64,000 nucleotides of DNA, taken from assembly GCA_963920575.1 (NCBI GenBank), contig OY986974.1, positions 21,621,042-21,685,041 of the forward strand. The letters run 5' to 3'. The notes beneath the pieces are model-generated. The model did no database searches. It was not told the DNA's origin and saw nothing but the letters and a program-made list of their open reading frames with translations. The stretch comes from Narthecium ossifragum. Taxonomy: Eukaryota > Streptophyta > Magnoliopsida > Dioscoreales > Nartheciaceae. Positions 8,175 through 62,200 of this stretch are shown one piece after another. Numbering within the stretch: position 1 is the first letter of the stretch; every line of letters begins with the position of its first letter. Position numbers and translations under genes: made by a program.

Positions 8175-8894
8175 TATTGGGGAATTTGAGGGGTCCCGAC
8201 GATGTCGGAGATACGCCAGATAGATACGGGGATGTCGCAGCGGAAGAGAAACAACCAAACCACAAAAGAAAAGGAAAAAGTGGAGACAATGATTTACGTG
8301 GAAAAACCTACCAGCAACAACTGGAAGGAAAAAACCACGGGCAGCAGAGGAAATCTTCAGTATGAAAGAGAGATTACAACACCCAAACCCTAGCAGAGAC
8401 AAAGATATCTCTCTTTAGGGTTGTTTACTCTCACACCTCTCACAATCCTCTCAATAACATCTCTATCACAAAGAGAAACCCTAAAAGCACCCAATTAATA
8501 GCCTCCAATAAACACAAATCCGGATTAGATCTGAGCCGTCGGATTTGCCCGTCCATGAGAGAAAGATCGATCCCACTCAAGGGAAGGATCGATCCTTGTA
8601 TGCATGAGATTGAGGGATTCCAGAATTCCCGAGTCGGATCGATCCCACTATGTAGGAGCGATCGATCCGTCCCTAAAAAAACTCAGCATCTCGAAGAAGG
8701 ATCGATCTGCGGATCGATCCAACCTTGACCTTCGAAAATAGGTGCTCTCTGTCTCTTTGTTTTCCGAGTAGGATCGATCCCTCTTGGAGAGATGGATCGA
8801 TCTGTTGATATTTTTCAAGGAGCGATCGATCCCTCTCTTAAAGAAGGATCGATCCTACCTCTTCTGTCGTCATCTCATGGGAGGAAAACTCAAC
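8175..8894 (-). repeat. 3' LTR of the gag-only copia element
   Basis: About 720 bp, nearly identical to 10169-10914. The conserved TTGGGGAAT start is present on the plus strand, but the outer dinucleotide is mutated (TA in place of TG). It contains ten GATCGATC palindromes in five pairs starting at 8565/8587, 8637/8660, 8700/8712, 8772/8795 and 8824/8847. Its TATA region (about 8489-8500) is degenerate compared with the other LTR. Confidence 0.9.
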
Positions 8895-9289
8895 AAACTC
8901 CCCCGTCCGACACATGAGGATAAGCCGTCGAACCTGGATACTTCATCAAGCTCGAAAACTCCATCAAACTCGGATACACCATCGAATTTGGATTGCGCCG
9001 CGGTCATGCCACCTCCAGTGCTGCCAGCTAGCCACTTTTATGTTGCCGTCGAAGTTGGATAACACCATCAACCTCAGATCTACCATTGAACTCCGGATCT
9101 CCCATCGGATTCAGAACCATCATCGAGAACTGTCCACCAAGTCTTGGATGTCGCCGTCAAGTCTTGATCTTCTCGGTTGCTTTCTTGCCTTCAAGTCACA
9201 GTACGTCCCGGGCTTGTAACTCAGATATCCTCGGCCGCTTCGATCGACCGGATACACCTCCTCGTGCTCCCAGCACGAAAGCTCACCCG

Positions 9290-10077
9290 TCACAGGACAT
9301 CCACGTCTCGCGTGACGATCGCAGTGCTCCCATCTTCACCATCATCAACCTTGTCATCTCTGACGTCCTTGTACTTCCTGCACTGCTTCTTTACATGGCC
9401 TGGTTTGTCACAGTAATAGCAAGTGACACTTTTTCTTCTGCCTTGGTTCACGGCCACCATAGACTCTGAATCTATCTGCCTTGTTTCAGCAGCCTTCCGT
9501 CTGGTCTCTTCGTTCAGCAAATAGCATGTAACTTGGCTCAGAGATACTGCTCCGTCAGGCGCTGAGTTGCTGAGCGATACTACCATGCTCTCTCAAGAAT
9601 CTGGCAAAATACTAAGCAGGAGTGATGCCTTCAGGTCGTCATTCAAAACCATCTTCATGGTTGCAAGTTGATTGACGATGCTCTGGAACTCATTCAGGTG
9701 CTCGGCTATCGACCCTCCACCTGGTACTTCATATTCACAAGCCGTCGGATCAAGAAAGTTTTGTTTCCAACAGACTTCCTCTCGTAAAGCTCGTGAAGCT
9801 TGTCCCACAGATCTTTGGTTGTCATCATCGTCAACACGTGGTGGTAGACGCCATCTTCCAAACACTGTCGGATAGTTGCCAAGGCCTTCCTGTCCAGCTT
9901 GTTCCATTCTCCTTCCTCCATCTCTTTAGGCTTCTTTTTTATTCCATGCAGAGGCTCGTAGAGATCCCTGCATAATAACATATCCTCCATCTTTGTCTTC
10001 CATAGGCTCCAGTTGTTTCCGTTGAGTAGATTCATCCGTATAACATTGACGTCCATCTCGCTTCTGTCAGAATCCAA
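9290..10077 (-). pseudogene. Copia gag (UBN2-type) with CCHC zinc knuckle, broken
   Basis: Reading from 10077 downwards, the start region and LLNGNNWSLWKTKMEDML, then ALATIRQCLEDGVYHHV and DLWDKLHELYE are typical of copia gag capsid regions. The frame shifts near 9710 and continues as HLNEFQSIVNQLATMKM. A stop (TGA) near 9590 follows, then the same frame carries on to a zinc knuckle CYYCDKPGHVKKQC (C-x2-C-x4-H-x4-C). The protein would have packaged element RNA. With one frameshift and one stop it is no longer functional. Confidence 0.85.
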
Positions 10078-10154
10078 CCCAGATGCTTCAGATCTTTGAT
10101 TAGGGACTTAGAATCTTGATCAGGGATTCGAATCCCCCTAATCTCAGAACCTAG

Positions 10155-10166
10155 GCTCTGGTACCA
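10155..10166 (-). other. Primer-binding site
   Basis: On the minus strand it reads TGGTACCAGAGC, one base from the common plant initiator-Met tRNA site TGGTATCAGAGC. It lies two bases inside the LTR, which fixes the element's orientation. Confidence 0.85.
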
Positions 10167-10168
10167 CT

Positions 10169-10914
10169 TGTTGGGGAATCTGAGGGGTCCCGACGATGCC
10201 GGAGATACACCAGATAGATACGGGGATGTCGCAGCGGAAGAGAAACAACCAAACCACAAAAGAAAAGGAAAAAGTGGAGACAAGGATTTACGTGGAAAAA
10301 CCTACCAGCAACAACTGGAAGGAAAAAACCACGGGCAACAAAGGAAATCTTCAGTATGAGAGAGAGATTACAACACCCAAACCCTAGCAAAGAGATATCA
10401 CCCAAACCCTAGTAGAGACAAAGATATCTCTCTCTAGGGTTGTCTACTCTCACACCTCTCACAATCCTCTCAATAACATCTCTATCACAAAGAGAAACCC
10501 TAAAAGCACCCTATTTATAGCCTCCAATAAACACAAATCCAGATTAGATCTGAGCCGTCGGATTTGCCCGTCCATGAGAGAAAGATCGATCCCACTCAAG
10601 GGAAGGATCGATCCTTGTATGCACGAGATCGAGGGATTCCAGAATTCCCGAGTCGGATCGATCCCACTATGTAGAAGCGATCGATCCGTCCCTAAAAAAA
10701 CTCAGCATCTCGAAGAAGCATCGATCTGTGGATCGATCCAACCTTGACCTTCGAAAATATGTGCTCTATGTCTCTTTGTTTTCCGAGTAGGATCGATTCC
10801 TCTTGGAGAGATGGATCGATCCGTTGATATTTTTCAAGGAGCGATCGATCCCTCTCTTAAAGATGGATCGATCCTACCTCTTCTGCCGTCATCTCATGGG
10901 AGGAAAACTCAACA
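10169..10914 (-). repeat. 5' LTR of the gag-only copia element
   Basis: TG...CA ends on the plus strand and about 746 bp long. It is longer than its partner mainly through a roughly 22-bp tandem duplication around 10380-10415 (repeated acccaaaccctag block). On the minus strand a TATA box (CTATAAATAG, 10511-10520) lies just downstream of the GATCGATC array at about 10580-10880, so the array is in U3 next to the promoter. Confidence 0.9.
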
Positions 10915-11043
10915 AATAACGGCAAGGCTTGGCTATATAATATTGGATAGCTCGAACACCAATTCTTCTGTGCTGACTCTGTTAATGGTCGAATTTATTT
11001 CCATGCTGTTTAGCTGGAGCCTGGACTCAGCTTGCTTTTCTTT

Positions 11044-12329
11044 CCAGGATGATGGCTGCGGACTGGTGGTTTGGAGATGGGCCATTAATCCTCTCACCAT
11101 GCATGATGGCTGCGAAGGAATGCTTGTTCCATATGGGGGTTGGAGATTTTATTGATGATGGTGGTTCATGGAACAAAGAGAGGCTAGTGGAGTTTTTTCA
11201 CCCGGAGATGGTACAGTGCGTCACGGAAGTTCCGCTGGTTTTACGGGAAGAAGCCGGGATGCCGAGATGGACAGGGAGCTCAGCGGGGGTGGTCACCACC
11301 GCGTCATGTTACCAAATGCTTGAGCAGCAGAGTGGGTTCCAATGTGCAGAAGATCAAGTTATATTGTGGCGAAGTGTATGCAGAGCTCCGGCAGGGCCGC
11401 GAGTACGTATGTTTATGTGGAAACTAATCCACCAGAAAGTTCCTACTAAATTGGCGCTCTGGAGTCTTTGTTTGTGTTCGGAGCGGGAGTGCCTAAGATG
11501 CCAACAAGAGGATGAGACGGCGGAGCATGTGCTATTCAGGTGCACCTTTGCCGCGCAGGTCTGGGAAGGGGTGCTGGGAGAGAGGGATTGTATAGGGAGC
11601 ATTTCTAATGCTCTTGAGGAACTGCAAAGGCCTTCTAAAACAGAGGGAAGGGTAAGGCGCAAGTCATTGATCGCCTACACGATGTGGGGCCTTTGGAAAC
11701 AAAGGTGTCGGTACGTGATGGAGGAGAACACTTCTGAAGCCAGGGACCTGGCTAGATCAAATACTTGGCAGGTTAATGAATTTTTTTTGGTGGAAAAGGA
11801 GAAGAGGATGGGGTTAGTGGAATGGGATGGGCTACTTCTTCAGTCAAATGCAGCTGTTGACATGGATAGGGGGATGGTCGGTGTGGGCGTTGTATGTGTG
11901 GATAAGGAAGATGTGATGCTATGGTTAGAGAGTGGGTCTCGAGTGGTCTCATCGGTACTGATGGGGGAGCTACTAGCGGTGCAGCTAGCTTTACGGGAGG
12001 CACAGAAGAGAGGAGTTCGACGAGTCCTAGTGGAAACAGATTCTCTGTTTACGGCAAATATGATAGAGGGCCGGATGCCTCTAGTTCGCGACTGTGATCG
12101 AGTAGTGAAAGAGATATGGTGGGAGAGACAGAATTTCACGGAATTCATGGTCCGATATACTCCTAGAGAGGAGAATACTCGACGGATTGGGTCGCCAAGA
12201 TGGCCTTACAACTAACTAATGTATTTGATAGGGAAGAGGGGACTAGCGGGGATGTCCCTAGTATCTCTCGTAGTATGTAATCTCCTCAGTGGAGAATCTA
12301 GCCTTTCAGCTTAATTGTCCAAAAACAAA
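11044..12329 (+). mobile_element. 5'-truncated LINE (L1-type) with 15-bp target duplication
   Basis: The 15-bp direct repeat AGCTTGCTTTTCTTT occurs at 11029-11043 and 12330-12344 and exactly brackets the element. The 3' end has a short A-rich tail (AAAAACAAA). Only the C-terminal third of the second LINE ORF is present, as expected for incomplete reverse transcription. The sequence from 10915 to 11028 and from 12345 onward was continuous before insertion. Confidence 0.9.
11049..12280 (+). pseudogene. LINE ORF2 fragment: zf-RVT and RNase H domains
   Basis: An open frame runs 11049-12215. It contains a zf-RVT-like segment (RMFMWKLIHQKVPTKLAL, then CLRCQQEDETAEHVLFRCTF) followed by an RNase H (RVT_3) domain with GVGVV, ELLAVQLALREA and VETDS motifs. 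The normal C-terminal DWVAKMAL block is found in the next frame at about 12183-12210, so there is a frameshift just before it. The reverse transcriptase and endonuclease domains are absent. It is a non-functional retrotransposon remnant. Confidence 0.85.
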
Positions 12330-12344
12330 AGCTTGCTTTTCTTT

Positions 12345-31596: not shown

Positions 31597-34344
31597 TGTC
31601 ACGCCCCGACCCAGAAAACCCATGCAGGCCGGGACGTGAGGGTCCTAAACTCTAAATCAAACGGCGATAGCCTCCCCTTTGAACATCAATTTAAAACCTG
31701 GTGCATGATTACAATATTCACAATTAATTTAAACTATCCTATCATCAAATCATAATACAATTTAACTTTAAAAAGATATAATAATGATTCAAGTCATCTA
31801 GTACAGCAATCTCTGATCAATTTACATCAAATTAAAATACAAATATATATCTCCTTCAAATTACAATTTATACATTTAAAGCTGTACATCAATTGAATAT
31901 AATAAACTGATGATATCCTCGATCTCACGCACCACTAAGGGGAGTGCCGCCTCCAACACCGCAACAACCTGAAAGAGAAGGGACTGCATCAACCTGCATC
32001 GCCGATGCAGCCCAGGTAGGAGTGAGCAACAAAGCTTGCTCAGTAGGGTTCTACTCTACGGCACACTGAAGGGAGGAAAACAACAACAGTGTTGTCCCCC
32101 AGCCTAAGTCTAAAGGATGCCACGGGTCCCATAACCCACCGATGTCCCAAGGGTTCCTGTCATGAAACCTCTCTCCTGAACATGTTACCAGGAGGACCAC
32201 GGAAACAGTAACATGCAGGCTCTAACCCTTACCCAGCAGGGATACCACTGCCTGGGGACCACGTCGGGAACTCCTCGGTTGCATCCTTAGCACTTAGCCT
32301 TGGGAAGACAACACGACCTCTAAACCTCAAAACAATATAATATTCCAGTCCGACTACCTAATAATCCTCGAATGATATCAAACATAATCACTGATAACAA
32401 TCACATCCTAATCCTCGACTACCCCAAACCCAGGCCCTAGGGCTAGATCCGGGCTACCCGAGAACCCCGGATCAATGATCGAAACCATCGTCTACCACCT
32501 AGCCTGATGCTTCTAATGCAAACAGATGCATGCAATGCTCAAGCACAGAGATACAGGAATAGCAGCATGCAACAATATGCCAAGACAACATACACGGGCT
32601 AGGCGAAGCGTCAAGCTTGCCGGAGGGTAAAAATGCATAAAGCAGGTAAAGGTTAAACTACAATTATACAATATTATAACGGCGCCCACGGACCGTTAGC
32701 AAGCAATTTCTACAACGGGGGCACAACCCCGGCCACACAGATAATAATCAACCACATTTAAGACACACCCTCTGCCATTTAATTAGCTAAACATCCCAAG
32801 GGGCACAACCCCCTTGGTTCAACTACAAGCTAAATATACATATAAATAAGCATGACATGTGATTAAATGCTAATTAAACAAGGATGATTTATACCTAATT
32901 AGACATGCCGAAAATCAAACAATTAATCATCTAAAAACAACCAATTAGAACATGCTAGCCATCAAAATCTCTAGGAATACCAATCACATGAATCCCGAAG
33001 AATCAAACATGATAAAACATCGAAAATCCACAAAAAACACTATTCATGGCTGGCGGTCGATCGACAGATCGACCGTGAAAAATCTAAGGTTGACGGTCGA
33101 TCAACGGATCGACCGTGAGGGTTAATTTCGCTATTTTTCGGGCTCACGGTCGACCTTGGAGACCTCACGGTCAACCGTGGAGACCGCGACGGTTGATCCA
33201 CGGATCATCCGTGGCACTATTCATCAGCAACTCTGCACCGACACAGTTTCGTATAAAAATCACCAAAACTCGTAGAAAAATCGGAAAAATATGAAATCAA
33301 TTGGGTTTGAAAGTAGACTCACAGATCTACAACTCTTGTCTGTCATAAAAAATCCAAGATCATGCATGTACAAGCCGGAAAACTCGCCGCAAGCCGACTG
33401 TTCTTCAAGAACAGCAGAAAACCGGAAATCCGAGATTTATCATGCTAAAATCCTACTGAAATCTTAACCAAAGTTCATGAAACTTAAATCAGAGACTAAA
33501 TTAAGCAACATGCATTCAACAACATAATTTCATCACAATCTAACGGCTAGATTTAACTAAACCCATTAATTAACTCATGTAGGTAGAACACCTACCGGAC
33601 TGCGCATTCCTCGGTTGATCCCTCACAAACCAGCCACCAACGAGGTTCCACACCACACCAGGAGTCTTCCTCTCGTTGCCACGAATCCAACAAGCTTTAG
33701 AATGCCCAAAATGGTGGTCGGAGGAGGGAGAACGGAGAGAAGAAAGCTGGCTGCCCGGAAAGAGAAACAGAGCAAGCTCTGCTTGCGGGAAGAAGAAACA
33801 GCCAGGGAGAAGAAAGAAGAAGAGAAGGAAGAAGAGGAGGAGGGAGAAGGGAAGGAGAAGGAAGGCCGGGGAAGGTGGGGGAGAGGGTGAAGGAGAAGAC
33901 CTCTCCTGACAAAGGAGGACGAAGGAGATCACCTGCCCTCCGCGAGTCCAACAACTGCCCAACTGCTCTAACTTGCTGGAATAGGAGGATCGATCCTTTC
34001 ATCAAAGAGGATCGATCTTCTTAACAGAAAGATCGATCTTCTTCTCAAGGAGATCGATCACCTTTGCCAAGAAGGCAAAACTTGGCTAAAACGCAAGCCC
34101 AAGCTCGGATCTTTCGATCCCGGGTCCACCTAGCCATTCTAAACAAACACTAACACAAATAAGGTCAGTGTGTGCAACACGGGTGTGAAACTGACCACCA
34201 GGGAGCATATTTACCAAAATGCCACTGGGGTCAAAAACAGCGATGCGATCAACCGATCGCATCCCAGGGCCAACCGAGCCAAACCACAAACCCAGACTCT
34301 CGACCTAACGCGGTCGGACCGGGTTGGAGGTACGGGTCCTCACA
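31597..34344 (-). repeat. 3' LTR of the gypsy element (2748 bp)
   Basis: In the minus sense it begins TGTGAGGACCCGTACC (34344 downwards) and ends GGTCGGGGCGTGACA at 31597. The part 32500-34344 is homologous to 57400-59243. It contains paired GATCGAT-type palindromes at 33053-33215 and 33988-34060, and a GA/CT-rich block at 33710-33900. Long ORFs in it are by-products of low complexity. Confidence 0.8.
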
Positions 34345-42788: not shown

Positions 42789-43399
42789 TAAAAGAAATGA
42801 CTTCAGCCAATAAATTAGCACACAAAGTAGCATCACCTCCTTATCTGAGAACGGATGCGGCAACTTTATAAGGGAGCTGCATGACACACATAGTCTGAAC
42901 ACCAAAGATGAATCGGCCTGTGAGCTTTAAATTTCTTGCCAACTTCCAACAACCTCCAACCAATATCTATATATATCAAGCTTCAATTAAAAGACTAGGA
43001 CATTGGGTCAAATCAGTCAATCAAGTCAACTTAATAATGGCATGGGTTCTAAAAGGGATAGAGTTGTGTGGAACCATCTCACGTAATTATTTCTGTATGG
43101 CATTTCATAGTCTAACTTCGTTTGTCTGTATTTTACACGGTAACACTTTTTTTTATTATTTTTGGGTCAATTTTTTTTCTAGAACATCTCTATTTTTATT
43201 TTTTATTTTGTGAATTTTTAATTTATACATCACAATTATATATCCCAAATTTACCGGTGAATATCGATTTTAAAGAGTAAACTTAGACGAGGTTTAAATT
43301 CAGGACCATTGCTCTAATATCATTTTTTAACTCAAGTAGTGAAAAAAAAAATGAAGGCTAATGCATAAGACATGAATTAAATTGCAATTTTAACATACC

Positions 43400-43595
43400 C
43401 TTAGTAGGGAACTGCAGAGCCGTGGTTCAGGATATTTGGTGACTGAGTCACAACCTTGCTGAGCTCGGTGTAACTTATATCCCTCGTGAGGTCAACCTCC
43501 GTGCAGACTGGTTGGCTCGTGAGGCCCTGACGCTCTGTCACTAACCCTTAAATGGGGTTTTTAGCCCTCGGGCTCAATTTATCAAAAAAAAAAAA
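43400..43595 (+). mobile_element. Short 5'-truncated LINE insertion
   Basis: An 18-bp target duplication (43382-43399 and 43596-43613, two mismatches) brackets a 196-bp insert ending in an A-run. The equivalent site in the duplicated copy (54676-54693) is empty. The insert reads like the end of LINE RNase H (VNLRADWLAREAL then stop). It therefore inserted after the segmental duplication. Confidence 0.85.
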
Positions 43596-44838
43596 CTGCA
43601 ACTTTAACATACCTCCTCAGTAATACATCTATGTTGCTTCTAGATGCTAAGAATTGAAATGTGATAGCAATGTGGAAGTCAAAACACTGGAATAGGTTGT
43701 CTCAGATTGGTAGGATAAGAATGAACTGCTAAACCATACTTCATATATATGATACGTAGTTAGAACACCTCATATGTGGCTTAAGTTTGTTGCCAACTAC
43801 AAACAACCTCCAACCAATGCCCATCAGAGCTTCAATTAAAAGATTTGAACCAGTCAAGCAAGCTGATTCAATTAAAAGTGGTCCAGCTTTGATGAGCCCA
43901 TCTCAGTTGTTTCTCATGTCTAATTCATCAATGTGCCAAACTATCCTTAGCTCATTTTTAATGGTTATAAATTGAAATGACCAATTTGCACTTATTGGCC
44001 TCCTCTCATTTACTCTTTTGAAGTTACCATATTAAGTGATTCAGGTTCAGAGTTTTGATTTCGGTTTAGGTTTTGGTTTGAATAAAAATAAGATCATTTA
44101 CAAAATTATCTTTGGAAAACTTTTGAATTGCACATTTATATTTTATAATTTCAAATACCAAATCTTTAGCTTCTTAACTACATGGATATCCTTGAGTTAG
44201 ATTATAGAGAATATTCCTATCGAAGCAAATTACATAGATATCCCTAGGTTAGATTATATTACACTATGTGACCCGTCACTTGGCACTGGTAATCATCCAC
44301 CTCTTCTCTCTCTCGGATGGATGTCACGTCATAACCCACAGTAGATGGACATCCCATTTACGTTTTAGTTCATAGAAAATTTTGTTTTGAGTGAACGAAA
44401 ATAATCCAGACTGCACAACAATATCTAAATTGTAGAACTATACTACTAATCTCAGCAAAATTTTGAATTTAAAAAATAAGTTTGTTTTTGTGATATTCCC
44501 GAGTTTCTTTTCTTCCCTGAAGAAGCATTCCAATGAGTTAGGGATGGGAGAAAGATTAGGAATAGAAATAAAAATAAGTATAATAATAATAAAATAATTA
44601 AGAAAGCAGAAAAAAACTGATAGATGGAAAGGAGAAAAAGTGCCGACTATTTAACCCTATCCCAAACTCCATCTTTAACCTCCGACCAAACGCTATAGTG
44701 TTGTACGTTTGAAAAGACTTTACTCGAAGTGACAAGCAGTTGTGTGACTGTTGCTTCCTCGCACTAATGTATCCAAGACTCCAAGTCTTTTGATAGGTTG
44801 GATTCATGGAGGATATGACACAATCAGGAATAGGTGTG

Positions 44839-46408
44839 ACGGGTAAAAAAGTGAAATAGGGTGAATTCATTTAACCCTTTGTTGACGTTTGGTTTAAAAA
44901 TAAAATAAGTTAATGGGTTAAGTTTGAATAAGCATAAAAATCATAAAATATATAAAATATATAATATTATAATAATGGGTAAGCTAGTGGGTTAAGATTA
45001 TAATATTTGAATTAACTATTAAATTAATTTAAATGTTTATACGTAAAGTGTATAAAATATATAATATTATAATAGTGGATAAGCTAGTAGGTTAAGCTTA
45101 TAATATTTGAATTAATTATTAAGTTAATTTAAATGTTTGCACGGAAAATATATAAAATATATAATATTGCAACTGTCCAGCAACTTTATTTATTTTTAAG
45201 TCAGCGCACGCTGACATCTAACCTCAGCATCACTCCTATAACCAATTTTGGTTGCAATCAATCCCCAAAACACTGGCTAACCCATCTTTCTCTATTCCAC
45301 AATTAAGTTAAGTTTTCAGTATTTGTGCGTTGAACCGTATAAAATTTATACTATTATAATATTACATAAATTAGAGTACAAATATATTATAATAAAGTAT
45401 AATATTACCACCCCATCCGTCCTGTTCAACGCCTCCACCGGCGAATCTCTCTTGTATCAACGCTCGCTTATTTACCATCTCTGGCAAACGCCCGTTCCTC
45501 CGCTATCGTCGGCAACGATGCCCGCCCATCCTCCACCGGGTCGTATGGCTCGCCGATGTTGAGGCCGTTATTGCCGGCGCCGTGACCGCCAGCGACGTAC
45601 TCTACCTACGACGAACGTGAAGAAGAATCGTATCGTCACATGGCATAGCATGGTGATGTGGCATGATCGTACATTTTAATGCATCCCAATGTGAACCCAC
45701 TTATAATAATATAGTAATAATATTTTAATATATATCATTAAAATAATATAAAATAAATAAATTTTGCATAATGTAGACCAATCATGATATGACATGTGGC
45801 ATGTGGACCCACTTATATTAAATATTTTTATTATAATAACATATAATTATTATTATTTATTAAACTACGCATATAAAAAATATTTTTACGTGCGCAAAAG
45901 TTTTTATATGCTCATAAAAAACCCATACAAAAATATTTATGGGCTCACAAAAATATTTGCACGTAGAATAACAAACACGCACAAAAAATGTTACTACGCA
46001 CGTAAACATTTTTATACCCTCATAAAAATATTTGCATGAATTTTTAGAAGCGCATAAAAAGTCTAAGCGCGTAAAAGCATTTTCCTATGCGTAGTGTATG
46101 AAATAATACCAATAACCTATTATTATAATAAAATATTAATATAAGTGGGTCCCACATGTCACGTGTCATGCCATGATTGGTCCACATCATGCAAAAAAAA
46201 TTATTTTTTTATTATTCTTTATATATTAGTATCATCAAAATAATATTAGGATAAATGATTTGAGTGTAAATGAGAGAAAGAAGCTTAGCACCATTTTTGG
46301 GTTTAACCCCTCTTAACCCCAAAAGCTTAACCTAATAGCATTTGGGGATAAAAATGGAGAAATCAAATAGCGTTTAGGGATAAGAATAAAGAAAACCAAA
46401 CGGGTCTT
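44839..46408. mobile_element. AT-rich 1.57-kb insertion absent from the duplicate copy
   Basis: Absent at the equivalent site in copy 2 (about 55490-55540). Weak terminal inverted blocks occur (GACGTTTGGTTT near 44882; AACCAAACGGGTC near 46397). Inside are two and a half tandem copies of a roughly 104-bp AT unit (44945-45170), a GC-rich patch (45405-45600), and an inverted pair of about 50 bp (45770-45818 versus 46137-46190) containing ACCAATCATG/CATGATTGGT. That motif is shared with the element at 30070-30935. The flanks carry a roughly 45-bp direct repeat (44793-44838, 46409-46456). Confidence 0.6.
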
Positions 46409-46981
46409 CATAGGTTGGATTCATGAGGGATCTGATACAATCAGGAATCTAGGTGTTTACAGTATGATATGAGAAAGGGACATCCAAATTGTTTGAACCA
46501 CCACAGTTAGAATAGCTGGATTTTGGTATCCATCAATCTTAGTTCTATGTCAACATGCATTGCAGTACTCCAAGAACACAAATAATTAACTAATCCTAAT
46601 TTATGCATCAACTACTTAACAGATGCAAAGTCGACATCCGGTTCTGATCTTGGCTATCGAGTTTTCACACCTAAGTTATCTCCTTAATTTGAATATATAT
46701 ATGGCTGATCAAATTGGTGAAAACTCCTAATCAGCTGATCAATGCGAGGAGAGCTAAGAAAGCAAGATAAGATCCTTCATGCATGCATGATGTCTATATT
46801 AATTTCTGCAACCCCTTTTTGGAATTGATATGAGTGTAATTGTTATTTTTTATACGAGGTTTGTTCAATACTATAGACTAACCCGCCGGACCGAAGCCGC
46901 CCGTTGCCATCCCTAACTGTCGCACTTCTTGTAGCTGGGCAACTTAAACCCAATCCTTCGCTCTACCTGATCAGCTTGCAC

Positions 46982-46982
<1 letters not shown>

Positions 46983-47039
<57 letters not shown>
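46983..47039. repeat. AT dinucleotide microsatellite
   Basis: An uninterrupted (TA)n run of about 55 bp. A shorter one sits at the homologous place in copy 2 (55924-55958). Confidence 0.95.
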
Positions 47040-47040
<1 letters not shown>

Positions 47041-47680
47041 TACGTTAGACAATCCGGACTGACATCCTTCTCACATGAAGACCTAATCAAGCATTATATT
47101 GCTCAGCAGACGGGAAGTCCACATCCAAATCGCCTATCCGTACTTGCATGCATGCATGCATACCCATCTGTCCCGTTTGTACCAATCACTAAAATCGTGG
47201 ACAATTTCTAAACTAGCTGAAATATCTCTATATTCCCGTAATTAAAATTTCATCATCAAGCACAAAATTAGCTTGTCCTCAATTTACCCCCTCCAAAAAA
47301 AAGAAATACAAGAAAATTAAGAGCTTTCCATTTTTCCAAGAAAATATTATCATAAGGTCATTGTTGTCCCTCTAAAAAGATGGTCATTGCTGTCCTCCCA
47401 TACATAGGGAGGAGGACAAGATTAGATAAAAAGCCCACTGTTGCCACTTCCATATAGAACCATGCACGCATCAGGATCCATGCATGGAGAAGTAGGATAG
47501 TAGTACAGGCGCATAGCTAGATCTCCCTCTATGAATGGCATTTTGGGCAACTCACTGTTACTTGCAGATGCTTCCTCATGCTGCAAAACACTCACGCTGG
47601 CAACATTCATTGCGTAGGGGTCTTGGTCTTCCCTTCATAATTAAAAACAGTTCGCTGGGGTAGTTGCACCCCTCCCTCTG

Positions 47681-47711: not shown

Positions 47712-47773
47712 GCCTTCCCTACGTAATTACTTCCCACACCTTATAAATGCCCTCATCTCCTTGTCTCCAGACC

Positions 47774-47809: not shown

Positions 47810-47810
<1 letters not shown>

Positions 47811-47964
47811 GTTCTCATCAACACATTTCTTCAATTCTTGTTAGTTTAGCTACTGCCATCTAACTCATCTCCTCTAACAAAATCTTTCTGAAGTAGTACT
47901 ATCTGAGATTGCTTGGTTATCAAGAATCTTTCGTAAATTAACAGTGGAATTGAGGTCTCAGAAT

Positions 47965-50900
47965 ATGGCAGATAGAAAGCGGGATTCTGAAGCTGAACCT
48001 GCAGCACCAGCTGCTCCGGCGCCTCCCCTCCCGAGCTTCGTCCAATCCGTAAAGCTCAAATACGTGAAGCTCGGGTACCACTACTTGATCTCCCACGGCA
48101 TGTACCTCGTCCTCCTCCCTCTCATCTTCGCCGTCTCCACCACCTTCTCCTCTCTCTCCATGGCCGACATCCAGCTGCTCTGGGAGCACCTCCGGCTCAA
48201 TCTGGTCGCCGTGGTGTCCTGCGCGTCTGTCCTGGTGATCTGCTCGACCATTTACTTCATGACCCGTCCCCGGCCGGTCTACCTGCTGAACTTCTCCTGC
48301 TACAAGCCGGAGGACGCCCGGAAGGTCACCCGGGAGATCTTCATGGAGCGGTCGGCGCTGGCCGGGGCGTTCACCGAGGAGAACCTGGTGTTCCAGAGGA
48401 AGATACTGGAGCGGTCCGGGCTCGGGCAGGACACGTACTTCCCGGAGGCGGTGCTCAACGTGCCGCCCAACCCCTGCATGGCGGAGGCCAGGAAGGAGGC
48501 GGAGATCGTGATGTTCGGCGCCGTCGACGACCTCCTGGCCAAGACCGGGGTCCGGGCCAAGGACATTGGCATCGTGATCGTGAACTGCAGCCTGTTCAAC
48601 CCCACGCCGTCGCTCTCCGCCATGATCGTAAACCACTACAAGCTCAGGGGGAACATCCTCAGCTACAATCTTGGAGGGATGGGGTGCAGCGCCGGGCTCA
48701 TCTCCATAGATCTTGCAAAGCAGCTGCTCCAGGTTCGTAATCATCAACTCATGAATCACACAAAGATTTTGGCAGTTGGGTGGTTGAGCTGTTCATTTAT
48801 TATGAGGAGTGATAAATAGCCAACCCCAACCTCATGTGTCATGTCTGGATTGTCGCCACCTGGCGATCCATATTTCAGATGCCAAGATGGATGGAGGAGA
48901 TTGTCACCCAGCCAAATAAAGGTTAACGGGTTAACGGTTAAAATCCGACCCGGTAGATGATCATTTGCACACGTGATGGTGTGAAATCTGGATTGCCCAC
49001 ACGGCAACGATCATGAGGATAGCCAACCCCGCATGCGCTTAGCTATATATCACTACTCTTTATTATTTCATGGATGCTTAGATTTTGCTTTCTCATAATA
49101 TATGCATGTTTATCTATATTGGTGTTGTTTAGGACATATCTGGGTAGTTATCAGCAATTATGGAGCTTAAATGAAAAATTGATGTGGAAATTAATTATCT
49201 AGACAATAGCATCTGTCAAACCTCTAAATTGGTTGGATGAAAAATAAAATTAGTATGGGCTAGAAATCCAATTTGAACTATCATTCTTATATGAGGCTAT
49301 GGTTATAAGTGAAACTTTCGTTGTCCTACGTGGCGGGAGAATGCCCTAGGTGGAGCCTATATGACGCATATGTCGCATGATAATTATAAGTTGATGGGGG
49401 TTTAGTGGGAGGGAGTTATTGGGTGGTTATTGGGGTGGGGTTGGTGATTACCTTGCCAGGTGGCAGGGGATATAACTAGTATACATATATATATATATAT
49501 GTGTGAATTCTCATTTCCATTATTAAAAAAGCTTGCATTTTAAATCCACTTTACTTAATTTCTTCCTTATAATTTGGAATCGATTTGTATTTTCCCGGCC
49601 AAACAGACCATATTTTCACAGGTAAGTTCCTTACTAAGTGAAGCCCCAGTGAAAAACGGCTTATTTTGTAATCAAAACACAAAATATTATTAAATTATAA
49701 AGTAATATATAGATCAAAATTAATATGCAAAATTTTCCATTGTTGCATACACCTTATTATGGTCAAACTAGTCAAACTTCTAGAATGATTAGCTTAATTA
49801 GATTTCAACAAAAGTCGCGGTTTATGTACATGGGCAGAGCATGTATATTACACATGTTCTCGAATCGGTAGTGAGATACCGATTGGTTGATCTAGTCCAT
49901 CAGTATTGTTACCGATGGACTAAATCAACCAATCGGTATATACCTACCGATTGAATGTATTAATGATCGAATCGGCGGTGAGATCCTGATTGGTTAATCT
50001 AGTCTATCGATACTGTGATTGATCTAGTCCATTGGTAGAATAATACCAATGAAATAAATCAATTAATCGGTAGATATCAACCGATTAGATGAATATACAT
50101 GTCATGTACACAAATTTTTATCTTTTCAACAATTATTTTTTCCATCAAGTGATGAACTACATAGAGTCCCAACTAGTATTATGTCAGGATTGATGGATTC
50201 ATTCAGGTTTCAACTTGTAGCAATTAATTCATGAGAATTCGCACCACGATTAATTGAGTGAAATTATGAAGCTTATTAATTAATTAATTAATTAATTCAT
50301 GCGTGCAGGTGAAAGTTCCATTGAAAAACGCCCTGTTTTGTGATGCAAGCACAAAATGGTACTAAATCATTGATTTGGGTGCGCATGTACATCATAAATG
50401 ATACTAAATCATAAAAGACATTGATTTGGGTATATGGGTCAGGGTATGTACATCATGACATAAACATCATTCGATCGGTAGATATCTACGAATTGATTCA
50501 CTTGGTCCATTGGTAGAACATTACCGATGGATTAGAATCGATAGACATCCACCGATTGAATATATCAATTATCGAATAAGTAGAACACTACCGATTGATT
50601 GATCTAATCCATCGGTAGTCCATCGGTAAAACACTACCGATGGATTAGATGAATCAATCGGTAGACATTTACCGATTGAAAGGATGTGTAATGTACATGG
50701 CCACGTGGAGATTGCAAGGATGTGCAATGTACTTGTCATGTACGCAAATCTTTATCCAATCATAAAATAAGAATTTAAACACATTTAAAATGCAAATTCT
50801 CCACTATTAAAAACACCTTATCAGGCATGGTCAAAATAGTCAATTTTTTAGAATTGTCAGATTTAATGTCAACAATTATCTTTTCCCATTAATTGATGAA

Positions 50901-51903
50901 CTACTTAAAGTCCCAAGTTATGGGAAATTAATGTTGTTATTGGAAATTATCACACTAGTGCTGTGTTAGCTAGGATTGATGGATTCATTCAATTTTCTTT
51001 TCAACTTGTAGGCTTGTAGCTATTAATTTATGAGAATTAGCATCACTATTAATTGATTGAATTGGAATTATTAAGCTTAATTATTAGTTAATTAATTCAT
51101 GCATGCATGCATATATGCAGGTAAATCCAAATTCCTATGCTTTAGTTGTTAGCATGGAGAACATCACCCTCAACTGGTACTTCGGCAACAACCGCTCCAT
51201 GCTCGTCTCCAACTGCCTCTTCCGCATGGGCGGCGCCGCCATCCTCCTCACCAACCGCCGCTCCGACCGCCGCCGCTCCAAGTACCAGCTCGTCCACACC
51301 GTCCGCACCCACAAGGGCGCTGACGACCACTCCTACCAGTGCGTCTTCCAGGAGGAGGACTCCACCGGCAGCGTCGGCGTCGCCCTCTCCAAGGACCTCA
51401 TGGCCGTCGCCGGCAACGCCCTGAAGACCAACATCACCACCCTTGGTCCGCTGGTCCTCCCCATCTCCGAGCAGCTCCTCTTCTTCCTCACCCTCGTTGC
51501 CCGGAAGGTGTTCAAGATGAAGGTCAAGCCCTACATCCCGGACTTCAAGATGGCCTTCGAGCACTTCTGCATCCACGCCGGCGGCCGGGCGGTGCTAGAC
51601 GAGCTGGAGAAGAACCTAGAGCTCAGTGAGTGGCACATGGAGCCGTCCAGGATGACGCTGTACCGGTTCGGTAACACGTCCAGCAGCTCACTGTGGTACG
51701 AGCTTGCCTACACGGAGGCGAAGGGGAGGGTCCGGCGAGGCGACCGGGCTTGGCAGATCGCCTTCGGATCCGGGTTCAAGTGCAACAGCGCCGTCTGGAG
51801 GGCGCTAAGGAACGTCGATCCGGCGAAGGAGAATAGCCCATGGAGCAGCGAGATTGATAAGTTCCCAGTTCATGTGCCAAAGGTGGAGAAGGTGGCAACA
51901 TGA
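47965..51903 (+). CDS. 3-ketoacyl-CoA synthase (KCS11-like), two exons
   Basis: Exons 47965-48732 and 51121-51903 (stop TGA) give 516 aa. KCS enzymes condense malonyl-CoA with long-chain acyl-CoA, the first and chain-length-setting step of the ER fatty acid elongase, feeding waxes, suberin and sphingolipids. Two membrane segments lie near residues 46-64 and 80-99. The FAE1/CUT1 condensing domain follows, with catalytic Cys241 in GGMGCSAG, His408 in [11 protein letters not shown] and Asn441 in FGNTSSSS. The text [13 protein letters not shown] is typical of the KCS4/9/11/17 clade. A GTG-initiated frame extends upstream to 47944; I chose the ATG at 47965. The coding sequence is very GC-rich. The 2.4-kb intron contains a tandem duplication and two MITEs. 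All key residues are present. Confidence 0.95.
49300..49486 (+). mobile_element. Helitron-like 3' terminus in the KCS intron
   Basis: It ends with a hairpin (CTTGCCAGGTGGCAGGG), 7-8 bases, then CTAGT at about 49478-49482, as in Helitron 3' ends. Upstream gtgggagggagttattgggt-type sequence is shared with the inverted copy at 27545-27665, and weakly with 2075-2235. The 5' end is not defined. Confidence 0.5.
49812..50123. mobile_element. Foldback MITE of the ATCGGTA family, KCS intron copy 1
   Basis: 312 bp with a perfect 9-bp target duplication TTTCAACAA (49803-49811, 50124-50132). The interior contains a 30-bp hairpin (49876-49905 versus 49910-49939, 28 of 30 paired, 4-base loop) built from ATACCGATTGG...CCAATCGGTAT, with further ATCGGTA/TACCGAT pairs around it. 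The homologous position in intron unit 2 (about 50868) is empty. Confidence 0.8.
50417..50757. mobile_element. Foldback MITE of the ATCGGTA family, KCS intron copy 2
   Basis: 341 bp flanked by a 10-bp direct repeat AATCATAAAA (50407-50416, 50758-50767). The ends are inverted and related (left GATTTGGGTATATG; reverse complement of the right end GATTTGCGTACATG). The interior has repeated ATCGGTAGA..TCTACCGAT-type inverted motifs. It is an independent insertion from the one at 49812. Confidence 0.75.
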
Positions 51904-52799: not shown

Positions 52800-52829
52800 A
52801 TTTTTATATATGCAAGTATCCATATATGT

Positions 52830-54025: not shown

Positions 54026-54041
54026 AAAAATATATATATAA

Positions 54042-55921
54042 GGGAGCTGCATGACACACATAGTCTGAACACCAAAGATGAGTTGGCTTGTGAGCTTTAA
54101 ATTTCTTGTCAACTTCAAACAACCTCCAACCAATATCCATATACATAAGCTTCAAATAAAAGTCTAGGACTCTTGGGTCAAACCAGTCAATCAAGTCAAC
54201 TTAATAATGGCATGGGTTCTAAAGGGGATAGAGTTGTGTTGAACCATCTCATGGTAATCATTTATGACTCTTGATAAAGTGATGTTTGGTCATTTTTGTA
54301 TTGCATTTCATAGTCTAACTTCATTTCTTTCCCATCATTTTTGGGCCGAAAATTTTCAAGAGAATCTCTATTTTTTATTTTTTATTTTAAGAATCTTTAA
54401 TTTATACATCAAAATTATATATGTAACTAAAGAGGATAAAATTGTACATGAAATATCCAATGATTTAGGCGAGACGAATCTAAAAGTAGTCCATCAGAAA
54501 CCTCTGGAAAAAATGACATGCATCATCACTATATAGCCCAAATTTACCCGTGAATATCGACTTTAAGGAGTAAACTTAGACGAGGTTTAAATTCAGGACC
54601 ATTGCTCTAATATCATTTTTTCACTTAAGTAGTCAAAAAAAAAAAGGAAGGCTAATGCATAAGACATGAATTAAACTGCAACTTTAACATACCTCCTCAG
54701 TAATACATCTATGTTGCTTCTAGATGCTAAGAATAGAAATGTGATAGTAATGAGGAAGTCAAAACACTGGAACAGGTGGTCTCAAATTTGTAGGAGAAGA
54801 ATGAACTGCTCAACCATACTTCATAGAAGATGATACATAGTTAGAACACCTCATCTATGAGGTGGTTTGTGAAGCTTAAATTTGTTGCCAACTACAAATT
54901 TAAAAGATTTGAACCAGTCAATCAAGCCGATTTAATAATTGCAAACATGGGGTTTTTAAAAGCGGTCCAGTTGTGATGATCCCATCCCAGTTGTTTCCTA
55001 TCATTGGCTCAAGCCTTTTATTTTGTCTAATCTCCAAGCCATCCTTAGCTCATTTTTAATGGTTATAAATTGAAATGACCAATTTGAATTTCTTGGCCTA
55101 CTCTCATTTACTCTTTTGAAGTTACCACCTCAATTGATTCAGGTTCAAAGTTTTGATTTCGGTATAGGTTTTGACATCCCATTTATGTTTTAATTCATAG
55201 AAAATTTTGTTTTGAGTGAACGAAAAGAATCCAAACTGCACAACAATGTCTTAATTGTAGAACTATACTATTAATCTCAGCAAAGTTTTGAATTTAAAAA
55301 ATAAGTTTGTTGTTGTGATATTCCCAAGTTTCTTTTCTTCCCTAAAGAAGCATTCCAATTGAGTTGGACTGCACACTCAATGACTCTATCTTACACTCAA
55401 ATTGTGTTCTACGTTTGAAAAGACTTTACTCAAAATGACAAGCAGTTGTGTGACTGTTGCTTTCTCGCACTAATGTATCCAAGTCTTTTGATAGGTTGGA
55501 TTCATGGAGGATATGACACAATCAGGAATCTAGGTGTTTACTGTATGATATGAGAAAGGGACATCCGAATTGTTTGAACCACCACAGTTAGAATAGCTGG
55601 ATATTGGTATCCATCAATCTTAGTTCTATGTCAACATGCATTGCAGTACTCCAAGAAGACAATTAATTAACTAGGCCTAATTTATGCATCAACTGCTTAA
55701 CAGATGGAAAGTCGACATCCGGTTCTGAGCTTTGCTTAATTTGCATATATATATGGCTGATCAAATTGGTGAAAACTCCTAATCAGCTGATCAATGCAAG
55801 GAGAGCTAAGAGAGCAAGATAAGATCCTTCATGCATGCATGATTTCTATATTAATTTCTGCAACCCCTTTTTGGAATTGATATGAGGGTGATTGTTATTT
55901 TTTATACGAGGTTTGTTCAAG

Positions 55922-55960
<39 letters not shown>

Positions 55961-56230
55961 TACGTTAGATAATCCGGACTGACATCGTTCTCACACGAAG
56001 ACCTAATCAAGCATCCAATCCAAGTCTTTAAATTTCAACACAAAGCTCGGCTTTATTAAAGCATGCAAATATTGCTCAGCAAACGGGAAGTCCACATCCA
56101 AATCGCGTATACGTACTTGCATGCATGCATACCCATCTGTCCCATATGTACGAATCACTAAAATTGTGGATAATTTCTAAGCTAACTGAAATATCTCTGC
56201 ATTCCCGTAATTAAAATTTCATCATCTAGC
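54042..56230 (+). repeat. Segmental duplication, copy 2 (downstream of KCS)
   Basis: Same order and orientation as 42868-47275. It lacks the LINE (43400), the 262-bp segment at 44084 and the 1.57-kb insert. Homology stops at 56230, exactly where the LTR-like sequence 56231-56820 begins. If the duplication originally extended further it would reach a second KCS promoter, now displaced. Confidence 0.85.
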
Positions 56231-56820: not shown

Positions 56821-57399
56821 CAATGCCCTCATTTTTTCCGTGTGAGTTGAAAAACTCGCATGGAAAAATAACGTCATCAAGCTCAGTGCCATGATAAGTC
56901 TTTCAACAAACAGGCATATTCGATTGGATTGAAGATTAAAACATGAACCAATGATAGAGAAAGAAACCCTAGTCCTTACTTAGTCATCCATCCGCCATGC
57001 CTGAAGATTTCTTGTCCATGGATGGTGGATTGGTCTTCTTCCTCCTCTAGAAAAGTAAGAAAAACGTTTGAAAAACGTCCCTTTGAAGCCCCCCTTGAGT
57101 AACCCTAAGTTTAATATTTATAGCCTCCAAAAGTCTTAAACTCAGGTTAGATCCGGTTTCGTATTTACGCTCGCGGTCGATCTAACGATCGATGAGTCGG
57201 TCGACCGTCAACTGTGCCACTTTATTTGGAAAAGCGGTGGTTGATCTTCGCATCGACCTTGAGAAGCCTTTTTCATGACAGAAGCTCACGGTCGATCTGG
57301 CGGATGATGCGACGGTCAATCATCACTATAGTGAGCACGACGGTCGATTTGACGGATGATGCGACGATCAACCCATCACCCACGCCTAGCTTAGAATGC
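56821..57399 (-). other. LTR promoter region with GATCGAT-type array
   Basis: Non-coding. On the minus strand a TATA box (GGCTATAAATATTA, about 57113-57125) follows an array of paired CGGTCGATC/GATCGACCG-like motifs at 57175-57370. The block is contiguous with the gypsy LTR fragment to its right and is probably its promoter part. Confidence 0.5.
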
Positions 57400-59243
57400 T
57401 TATAGTGCAATAAAATGCATGGATGCTCACACGCACATAAATAAGAATACGGGCATGCAACAATACGCCACAACAATATACAAGACTATGCATAACATAC
57501 AACTCGCCAAAGAGGGTAATCATAGCAAGGGTCTAAACAAATCGAATAAAGGCACAAAAGGCCTACAAGCCTCTACAAGGCTAACCAAACAATTAAGCAC
57601 TTCAAGCAATCCAAATTTCGGCATTACGACGGCAGGCACTTGTCGTCAACCAAAATTCTACAACAGGGCACGCTCCCGACCAAATCAAATACAATAACAA
57701 TGAGTAGTTACAATTTACATAAAAACTAGAGCACAACTTCAGCCCATTTACACTAAGCATTCCCGAGGGCCATCACTCCCTCGGTTAACCTACAAAGCGT
57801 TAAGGGGTACACCGTCGGCCCATTTAACTATCTAAACATCCCAAGGGGTATGACTCCCTTGGTTCAACCATGAACCTCACATAGGGCTTATACACACACA
57901 CACAATTCACATCTATAGCAAGGCATGTTTCTCAATTGAAAGCTAATTAAGCAATAGAATTAACAACTAAATAGGAATGCCAAGGCCGAGATTTAAACAT
58001 CCAAAATCCAACAAATTAGACATACTAACCCTAGATGTCACTAAGATCATCCAATTAAAGGTTCAAGGCGAATTAAACCGGAGAAATTATCAAAATCTGA
58101 GAAATCATCCTAAATTTGGATTGCTACAGTAACCTTAGAGAGGGTGAAATCTTCACAATTCAACGTCCAAACGACGTCAAATTTCAAATTAAACAAGATC
58201 AGATATAGAAAGAATTGTAGGAACATCGTATCCAAGAATTGGATCAATTTGATATCCAATTTCCACGGAATTTACTAAACTTCCCTAAGTTCTGTTTTAA
58301 CACAGTTTCGAAGAAAATTCACCACAATTGGTAGGAAAATTGGAAAATTATGAAATTAGTTGGGTTTGGGAGTAGACTCAAGGATCTACAACTTTTATGT
58401 AGAAGATTTCCCAAGATATATGCAGTTATGAGTCATAATTCAAGGTAGAACACGGCTGTTTCAATTAGAACATAAATCTGGAAAATTTAGAGAGAAAAGA
58501 TGCATAAATTCGGTATAAATCGAGATCAAACAATCCCAAACTTCAATCAATTATTAGTCAACCCTAGGAGGATTATCTAGCATGAAGAAATCAAAGGATT
58601 AACGGTTAAAACACTTAATTGCATCTAAACACATGCTTAGGTTAAGAACACCTACCTTAATACACAAATCCCTCACTAATCCTTACTTAATCCGACCTAG
58701 GATGGCCTAGATCGGTTCTTCAACTTTCTATTGTCGCCCCCAAGCCGCTAGAACTCCCTCTCTCACAAAACCCTAGCAACGGCGGAGAGAAGAATGAAAG
58801 AAGAAGAAACATAAGAGCTGGCAACTGCTTATACCAGCCGTGTCTGATCGATCACATAAAGCAGCGATCATTCAGACTAGGTCGGTTCATTGCCCTGGTT
58901 GACACCTGGCAAGCCGATTGATCGCTCCAAGGGCCGATCGATCGCTCAAAGGGTTGATCGATCTCTTCAGGGCTGAAAGCTGTCCTAAAGACAAGCTTTC
59001 GCGCCCGAGCTCGGATCGTCCAATCCCAAGCCCGCCTAGGGTTCTAACAAACGCATTCATCATTTATGGGGCCGTGTGTGCACTACGTGGGTGTGAAACC
59101 GACTGACAATGCATAATTTATCAAATTGCCCTTGGGGTTCAAAAATTCACCCGATCCCACCTGACGTGAAACAAAGCCATCCGAACCCACGGGTCCGACC
59201 CACGCGGTCGAACCAGGTATAGAGGTACATGTCCTCACAAAGC
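57400..59243 (-). mobile_element. Gypsy LTR fragment, homologous to 32500-34344
   Basis: Matching landmarks in order: gcatgcaacaatac, ccaaggggtatgactccctt, ggtaagaacacctacc-type text, then a right end GGTACATGTCCTCACA. That is the same end as the LTR at 34344. It contains a GATCGATC series at 58846-58963 spaced about 20 bp. It abuts the plus-strand gypsy pol at 59244, so one of the two elements inserted into or recombined with the other. Confidence 0.7.
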
Positions 59244-62200
59244 GAGCCTATTCTCCATCTAAGCAAACTTTGAGCTACCTTTTGAGGCACATATGGATGT
59301 GTCAGCAATAGCCATTGGCGGAGTGCTTGTTCAGGAGGGACATCCAGTAGCTTTCGAACGTCTAAAGTTGAACGAGGCAGAGCACCAATACTCTGCCCAC
59401 GAGAAGGAGATGCTAGTAGTCATACATTTTTTGAGGACTTGGCGTTTCTACCTTCTTGGGAGCATATTGATACGACTTGAAAAGTGTCGTGGCTTAACAA
59501 GACTGACCAAAATTACAATATATTCCGGTGCTCTACTTTAACTACTAAGAACTAGTAGATAGTGGAGAGTCCGAGTCGAGTCCACAGGGATTTCAGGGAT
59601 TTAAATCAAATACTTAGTAAATCTCCTACTAATAAGTTGAGAAAAGATTTAGAATTGAAATTAAACTAAACTTATACTAAAGGATTGAAGAATATGAGAG
59701 AAAGGACCATAGGATTCTTAATCAGTAGCTAAGGACATACCAGGTTCTCCAAAGATCAGGGTATGCAAACACGATAAATGGCTCCCTAAAAGTTGATAAA
59801 GAAATGGCTAGTTCTCATTATCACTCGACAAGTTCTGTTTAGGATTCCTTGTCGGCAAGAACAATTAACAAAATATCAGTGACCGAATGATTAGTTACAT
59901 TCACTGCTAATGAACCCTCTTACTCAGATGAGTTCATCGCAAACAAAGCCAAAGATATGGATTTAGGTGTAATATCGAGATGACTTCGCATCTCGATGGC
60001 CGAAACGACAAAGATAAGATACATGAAGGATTAGGGATGGACCGTAGTGGGACTAGCACTACTATAGTGGGACTAGCACTATACAATCCCTAATCACGAA
60101 CAAGATTCCATCCGAGATACCATGGGACTAGCATGGTCCTCTTATTTGGATGAATCCAATCCACGCCCTAACATACACAAGCTCTAGAATCAAGTGCAAG
60201 TAAGAACGATCCAAACATCCAGCAAGAAATCGACACCAAGATATAGGAAAATATAATCAATCCATAAAACCAAATAATCGTGTATACAAACCCTAAATCT
60301 GAGAAATCCATAGTAAAAACCCTAGTTACATCATAAGAATCCCATGGTTAGGGTTTTAGCTACTCATCTTCAGGGGATAATCCATCGGTAGAAGTTGATG
60401 ATCTCCTCCCGCCATGGATCTCCTCCAAAGGATCGTCAAAGAAAAGATGTAGAAAAGATAGGTAAACTCTCCCCAAAAACGTCTGGAAAAAGCCCCCTCA
60501 AATCCCTAAACAATGACTACTTATAGCCCAAGAGACAACCTCCCACGGATTAGATCAGAGCCGTCGATCTTTGCTTCTGGCCGCGTCCGATCGATCCAAC
60601 CTTTGGAGCCCGATCGATCCGACTCCTTAACTCCCTTAATATTGTGAGCGTCGCCCGAGCAGGATCGATCCAACTCTTGGAGTTCGATCGATCCTACTCC
60701 TTTATTGCTGGTAACTCCCGAGCTGGATCGATCGGGCTTGACTTGGCTGATCGATCGAACCACCGTTGTTAAGCTACATCCCTTGCTGGATCGATCGGGC
60801 TCTTGAAGTTCGATCGATCCAGCCGTTGTTGATCGTTCCCTTGTTGGTTGAGTTGGATCGATCGAGCCTGTAGAGACCGATCGATCTGGCTTGCCAAAAA
60901 TCGCCAAAATAGATTGTTTTAGCTCCAGAATTGATCTAACTCGTGGAAGGACCTGTTATGCCTGAAATGGAATAAAAGTAGTCAGTCCAGCATTGCTCGG
61001 GGCCCAACAAAGCCAAATTACAAGGGTGTTTTGTGCACTTTTCAAGTCTTATCACATATTTGTTGTGAGAACTAACAACGTCGCCAACATCTACTTTCAT
61101 GTGCAAAACAAGTTGTTGCCGAAACAAGCTGGATGGCAGGAGTTCCTACAACAAGATGACTTTGAGTGGCAGCACAAACCATGACGACACAATCATGTGG
61201 CAGACGCCTTGAGTCGAAAGGCAGTGCAAGAACAACTTGTGGCCATGTCTCAAGTTGAAGCTGACTTTCATTGCAAACTGAAGGCTGCAATACTAGAGGA
61301 CTCATGGCTGGGCTGGTTCGACGATATTGGATTGATGATGGCTTGCTAATGGCAAAAGGGGGTAGAATCTATGTGCCATGCGGAAAGCTATGGGCAAAAC
61401 TTGTCCGTGAGACTCACAATGCGAGATGGGCGGGGCATCCAGGCAAATATTGCAGTTTGGTGTTGCTTGGGCGATCTTTTTATTGGCCAAAGATGGAAGA
61501 TGATATGAACCTCTATGTCAGGACTTGCTTGGTGTGTCAGCAAGACAAGTCAGAGCATTCTCGTGTAGCAGGACTATTGCAACCTTTTCCAATCCCCGCG
61601 AGACCTTGGACTTCAATGTCCATGGACTTCATATCTAATCTACCAATGGTGGACGGCATGGGATCGATCTTGGTGGTTGTTGATCACTTTTCCAAATATG
61701 CGGTCTTCATCCCAACCCCTAAGGTATGTACTGCTGATATAGATGCGACTCTTTTCTTCAAGTATGTCATCAAATACTTTGGTGTACCTGAAGATATCGT
61801 CAGTGATAGAGATGTACGGTTTACTGGGTGGTTTTGGACCCTACTTTTCAACATGATGAGTTCCAAGCTCAAGTTCTCCACTGCAAATCATCCACAGACC
61901 AATGCGCAAACAGAGAGAATCAATGCTTTACTCAATGAGTACCTGTGACACTACGTCACAGTGAGCCAACGAAATTGGCTCGAGCTACTGGATACGACCC
62001 GGTTTGCTTATAATTTGCAGAAATCTTCATCGACGGAGTTGAGTCCGTTTGAGTTGGCAATGGGTCAACAACCACTGACACTCCATGTCCTGGCTGCCCA
62101 AGTCGAGGGAAGTCGATGTCATGCTGCCAATTGCTTTGCGAACGACTGTCAAGAGTTGCTAGAAGCTGCTCAAGACAGCTTAGCGAAGGCGCGGCGGAGG

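Follow-up and report, generated by a model that had tools for sequence, protein, structure and literature searches.

Palindromic octamer arrays upstream of the TATA box in long terminal repeats of a Narthecium ossifragum locus: candidate host-factor sites in retrotransposon promoters

Why do several long terminal repeats (LTRs) in one short piece of a plant genome carry rows of the same palindromic octamer, GATCGATC, next to their promoters? The question is raised by a 64,000-bp window of Narthecium ossifragum (GenBank assembly GCA_963920575.1, contig OY986974.1, positions 21,621,042 to 21,685,041), which an earlier note had described as holding paired palindromes in unrelated LTRs. All octamer counts and spacing tests refer to this window, and array positions and promoter order are given in minus-strand sense. 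GATCGATC occurs there in 36 exact copies, compared with a mean of 0.93 (maximum 3) in 60 order-1 simulations. The mean is 2.1 (maximum 5) over 60 simulations of order 3 and 18.9 (maximum 30) under an order-5 model, a model of that order having learned the octamer itself. Among the palindromic octamers of the window it ranks behind only ATATATAT and TATATATA, and its excess is beyond chance. All copies except one fall within five LTR regions totalling 7651 bp, an enrichment that is partly circular because these intervals were drawn from the finding; the exception, at 61662, lies in a frame with integrase domains. The five LTR copies represent at most three independent promoters.

The richest arrays belong to a short minus-strand copia-type element and to a solo LTR. 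The 3′ LTR of the copia element (copA, 8175-8895) contains ten octamers at 8565-8854, with spacings of 22, 50, 23, 40, 12, 60, 23, 29, and 23 bp, and its TATA box has decayed to TATTAAT. Its 5′ LTR (copB, 10169-10914) retains eight exact octamers at 10584-10873 (starts 10584 to 10866) and the TATA box GGCTATAAATAG at 10511-10522. The solo LTR (59468-61054, minus strand, TGATA...TATCA) is flanked by a 5-bp target duplication, CATAT, and holds ten octamers at 60589-60886, arranged in five pairs of exactly 23 bp. The ten copA octamers and the ten solo octamers were found precisely where the earlier note had placed them; the copB array was missing from its list. Neighbor gaps of 20-23 bp, a range picked after inspection of the data, are more frequent than under random placement both in copA (4 of 9, p = 0.005) and in the solo LTR (5 of 9, p = 0.0007). 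The 19-bp terminal inverted repeats of the solo LTR, in which 18 bases match, are long for an LTR.

Below the arrays, the copia and solo LTRs have a promoter in common. The last octamer lies 65 bp from the TATA box in copA (measured to the decayed box), 65 bp in copB, and 64 bp in the solo LTR, and in all three an ACGGCTC box stands 39 bp upstream of TATA. The copia core promoter (copB, 10511-10576) reads GACGGCTCAGATCTAATCTG and then GGCTATAAATAG; that of the solo LTR (60517-60581, minus strand) reads GACGGCTCTGATCTAATCCG and then GGCTATAAGTAG, with TATA at 60517-60528. A further LTR promoter at 57114-57365 (minus strand), with GGATCTAACC, GGCTATAAATAT, and TATA at 57114-57125, includes an array of another, CGGTCGA-type palindrome above its TATA box. 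The three TATA boxes singled out previously are all present, but the GATCGATC array thought to sit above the one at 57114 is not, as no exact GATCGATC occurs there. When the proximal 94-109 bases were compared with 2000 shuffles each, copB and the solo LTR scored 28 (shuffle maximum 17), copB and the 57-kb LTR 27 (maximum 16), and the solo and 57-kb LTRs 18 (maximum 17), no shuffle reaching the observed score in any comparison. Because the 57-kb promoter combines a similar core with a different palindrome, a given core promoter does not imply a given array type. Outside this block, similarity between copB and the solo LTR is at best marginal over the 200 bases downstream of TATA (score reached by 52 of 1000 shuffles) and over the whole 3′ part (13 of 300), and none is seen at the 5′ end (130 of 300); the 57-kb LTR has no convincing downstream match to copB (198 of 1000) or the solo LTR (55 of 1000). 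The relationship between the copia and solo LTRs is therefore one of U3 and is not convincing in the rest of the LTR. Scans of viral contigs, a collection of which little was expected, returned no match either for the extended pair or for the core promoter.

The array units themselves follow a shared pattern. We compared the spacers of eight 23-bp pairs (five solo, three copA), leaving out the 22- and 12-bp copA pairs and all copB pairs. These N15 spacers are on average 44% identical, as against 25% when shuffled, with 49% within the solo LTR and 56% within copA; between solo and copA the figure is 39% against 25% (0 of 5000 shuffles). On the inner flanks, all eight of these pairs have C at +4 and G at -4. 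The form G-N3-GATCGATC-N3-C, with G at -4 and C at +4, is carried by all ten solo octamers, six of ten in copA, and four of eight in copB, but by none of the four in the LTR at 31597 and one of three in the LTR fragment described next.

These last two LTRs are long, and only the octamer core links them to the copia and solo LTRs. The LTR at 31597-34344 (minus strand, TGTGAGG...CGTGACA in minus sense), whose gypsy label comes from the earlier note and whose lineage is not settled, has four octamers at 33988-34059. Their starts at 33988, 34010, 34031, and 34052 had been given correctly, but they do not form pairs, since their even spacing of 22, 21, and 21 bp is that of a 21-bp tandem repeat. 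The fragment at 57366-59239 (minus strand), which the promoter at 57114-57365 truncates or borders, has octamers at 58846, 58936, and 58956; in a reported 20-bp series the last two positions hold, and the first, 58916, reads GATTGATC with one mismatch. The octamer at 58846 stands 12 bp above a minus-strand TATAA (58829-58833). The two long LTRs align in three blastn pieces at 61-70% identity, which together cover 1214 of the roughly 1850 bases compared, and since they are homologous and their arrays occupy corresponding places, descent explains these arrays. Tandem Repeats Finder reported rows at 33985-34059 and 58913-58963 and none in the copA and solo arrays. The long-LTR octamers have other flanks and so were probably acquired separately. 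No Pfam match, and so no gypsy pol or chromodomain, was found in 12 frames at 34.5-38.7 kb beside the LTR at 31597-34344. That LTR also contains two 22-bp palindromes, CGGTCGATCnnnnGATCGACCG, at 33054 and 33094 (33054-33115), in agreement with the 22-bp units noted there before, and more decayed copies extend to about 33215. This second palindrome type, CGGTCGATC...GATCGACCG, at 33054-33215 and 57150-57365, has the highest CpG ratios among the regions measured; it sits inside one long LTR, and the homologous LTR lacks it where the two align.

We consider it probable, at roughly 60%, that the GATCGATC arrays act as U3 enhancers in plant LTR retrotransposons, each octamer forming the core of a dyad site for a host transcription factor. 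In the copia and solo LTRs this site would be the 16-bp G-N3-GATCGATC-N3-C, bound by a factor that probably acts as a dimer. With sites about two helical turns apart, several dimers could load side by side and would then drive the TATA promoter 64-65 bp below. A U3 module recognized by a dimeric factor had been one proposal of the earlier note, and among its proposals this one fits best, judging from the dyad sites, the equal distance to TATA in two families, and octamers that are exact between spacers of 44% identity. The GATA factors GATA12, GNC, and GNL, which are reported to bind a GATC core (PMC6918188), may be considered candidate binders, as a lead only.

The same note had also suggested a hairpin module, and RNA hairpins from transcribed 3′-LTR U3 might indeed serve as small-RNA templates or act in the element RNA itself, in packaging or strand transfer. 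Compared with 60 shuffles each, four GATCGATC arrays fold strongly (z = -6.3 in copA, -5.8 in copB, -9.5 in the solo LTR, and -5.5 in the long LTR); the two CGGTCGA arrays gave -5.3 and -2.1, and three control stretches -2.3, 0.0, and -0.3. Spacers from 13 pairs, copB left out, are self-complementary at 39 of 88 positions (null 22.9, p = 0.0002), and the control gaps between pairs likewise exceed their null (24 of 63 against 15.1, p = 0.007). In maize Sireviruses, small RNAs are described as piling up on palindrome clusters (Bousios 2016, cited in PMC10760457). Palindromes, however, fold well regardless of purpose, an RNA role does not call for two LTR families to keep the same distance to TATA, and the arms do not covary: re-pairing the flanks of 27 octamers did not alter the number of complementary positions, within error, at any of 12 offsets (lowest p = 0.26), and the true dyad count in the N15 spacers, 25, was below the re-paired mean of 28.7. 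Dyads that follow a consensus with arms lacking covariation favor a dimeric protein site over selection for hairpins, and we regard a hairpin role as unlikely. We are just as doubtful that the octamers are functionless simple-repeat relics of neutral tandem duplication, shared through one LTR ancestor. Such an origin would agree with the regular spacing, the tandem rows in the two long LTRs, the related solo and copA spacers, and the lack of visible constraint between the copia LTRs, but it sits poorly with copA and solo spacers that have decayed below the Tandem Repeats Finder threshold around octamers that are still exact, and with an octamer core that recurs in the long LTRs among different flanks.

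How the copia and solo LTRs came to share their U3 block is a separate matter, and one that is compatible with the enhancer reading whichever way it is answered. They may be a single diverged lineage without any transfer of a module, a view to which we give somewhat less than even odds: the homologous core promoters, the matching array geometry, and the marginal downstream similarity speak for it, whereas the LTR ends differ (TGTTG...CAACA in the copia element, TGATA...TATCA in the solo LTR) and beyond the promoter block the two are only marginally alike at best, with no similarity at the 5′ end. The shared block may predate the visible divergence, or it may have passed from one element to another, for instance when reverse transcriptase switched templates. 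The description of the LTRs as unrelated therefore needs qualification, as the two long LTRs are homologous and the copia and solo LTRs share motif and core promoter, although nothing else convincing. Passage of a module between families likewise survives in a limited form only, for the motif and core promoter of the copia and solo LTRs and not for the long LTRs. A bolder version, which we find rather improbable, would have a cassette of about 360 bp, array plus core promoter, travelling whole from one LTR family to another whose ends are unrelated, and families of one plant converging on the octamer through one host dimeric factor, perhaps active in the germline. In rice, GATCGATC is reported to be over-represented in sperm genes (15 genes, 54 duplications; PMC3224587), and GATCGATC and related octamers occur in iron-response promoters (PMC8207140); because of the latter, the sperm-cell link is a lead only.

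Several results weigh against the enhancer reading. Only exact matches were counted, so the 100% identity of the octamers is partly a product of selection, and the solo array does include a decayed copy at 60831. Helical phasing of the octamers was not established (p = 0.05 and 0.24). With the octamers removed, solo and copia arrays show no similarity end to end (196 of 1000 shuffles); as the spacers are alike by position, this indicates a positional motif and not alignable spacer sequence. Between copA and copB, changes affect 2 of 80 octamer sites, 8 of 210 spacer sites, and 14 of 434 remaining sites, so that substitution in the octamers is not clearly slower and no present-day constraint is visible, as expected for inserted copies. 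The re-pairing tests had few units to work with, and no protein that binds GATCGATC itself was found in the literature searched. CpG content adds no independent support. The five GATCGATC arrays have observed-to-expected ratios of 1.04-1.29, and the two with CGGTCGA palindromes 1.63-1.73, whereas the rest of the LTRs gives 0.44-0.70 and the whole window 0.72. Once the octamers are removed, however, the five GATCGATC arrays fall to 0.61, 0.90, 0.50, 0.00, and 0.70; the richness thus belongs to the palindromes together with their edges. For copA, copB, and the solo LTR, the ratios are 1.15-1.29 at a GC fraction of 0.47-0.53, and 0.50-0.90 without octamers.

Among known systems, the closest are the palindromic repeated motifs of Sireviruses. 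Between the LTRs of the copia element, which end in TGTTG...CAACA and are 93.5% identical over 749 columns, a gag in pieces lies at 9293-10107 (minus strand): Retrotran_gag_2 (PF14223) in two overlapping open frames (E = 3e-16 and 4e-8), followed by a zinc knuckle frame (PF00098, E = 3e-5). No other family, pol included, was detected in nine frames of at least 60 aa, in keeping with a gag-only element. Two LTRs with gag alone between them are the pattern of a TR-GAG, a class of non-autonomous element, and we take this to be the class that fits. A gag search returned one relative of 135 aa, uninformative on lineage. Thirteen of the Sireviruses in PMC2829016 carry palindromic repeated motifs, at least eight per element, tied to CpG islands; many copies lie just upstream of the LTR TATA box, which follows the island by 37 bp on average. 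The motifs are described there as Sirevirus-specific and absent from the classic copia elements examined, and a common host factor could not be named. The arrays studied here are similarly palindromic, symmetric, placed upstream of TATA, and common to otherwise dissimilar elements. With ten, eight, and ten copies, copA, copB, and the solo LTR reach the eight or more per element seen in Sireviruses, the long LTRs having only four and three, and the 64-65 bp from octamer to TATA agrees with the Sirevirus placement right above a conserved TATA box. The core, by contrast, is GATCGATC instead of CGG-CCG, a form that appears here only in the arrays of the other palindrome (33054-33115 and 57.1-57.4 kb); Tnd-1 is also an exception, its motif (ACAATCGATTGT) having an ATCGAT core, and the Vitis motif (CGGTCGACCG) resembles those CGGTCGA palindromes. 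Unlike the Sirevirus motifs, the octamers form 23-bp pairs in two LTR families, with the solo and long LTRs unclassified. Sireviruses have several copies of the polypurine tract AGGGGGAG 10 bp before the 3′ LTR and the 5′ junction CA/ATTGG (or AGTGG)/TATCAGAGC (PMC2829016); the copia element has a single tract, CGGGGGAG, with one mismatch at the same 10-bp distance, and the junction CA/AGTGG/TACCAGAGC, with one mismatch in the primer binding site. Given the different core and an element that shows the Sirevirus hallmarks partly or not at all, we see here a variant of the Sirevirus-type array.

Other plant LTRs offer looser parallels. The BI and BII boxes of Tnt1 and similar U3 enhancers of plant copia elements are tandem or symmetrical units upstream of TATA that are regarded as sites for host factors; their sequences are unlike GATCGATC and their copies fewer. 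Tandem U3 units of this kind are mentioned in PMC2829016 and PMC3601003. In Del elements, the 5′ part of the long gypsy LTRs holds a block that is rich in CpG and variable (PMC4029996), a likeness to the long LTRs of this window, labelled gypsy in the earlier note; the term "palindrom" is absent from the main text of that paper. Among the open-licence papers searched, no report of GATCGATC arrays in plant LTRs was found. GATCGATC is also the junction sequence of Hi-C and Chicago libraries (PMC5288721), but we rejected such an artefact, because array positions agree between the two copia LTRs and the arrays conform to a single motif.

Some further features of the window deserve mention. Open frames span the arrays at 60521-60955 (144 aa) and 8366-8728 (120 aa); since GATCGATC holds no stop codon in any frame, such frames may be mis-annotated as genes, and a protein search with the frame across the solo array gave 40 candidates, none at E = 0.001. 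The frame at 10986-12215, with zf-RVT and RVT_3 domains, directly adjoins the copia element and is probably a non-LTR retrotransposon remnant. Long direct repeats at 42867-47261 and 54037-56230, in blocks of 76-94% identity, flank a 3-ketoacyl-CoA synthase-like gene with frames at 47878-48819 (PF08392) and 51088-51903. A fold-back element at 45715-46248 is self-complementary over about 530 bp at 73% identity, and a 59-bp palindrome at 63809-63867 is 94.9% self-complementary. The top relatives of a PPR gene in the window, among the best 120 of 5331 matches, are from Elaeis (68%), Canna (66%), and gingers (64%).

Should this design recur, with a different core, in other LTR families of one genome, palindromic arrays above the TATA box would be a more general solution among plant retrotransposons, and the geometry seen here, with a 16-bp dyad, 23-bp pairs, and 64-65 bp to TATA, would offer a clean probe for the host factor.

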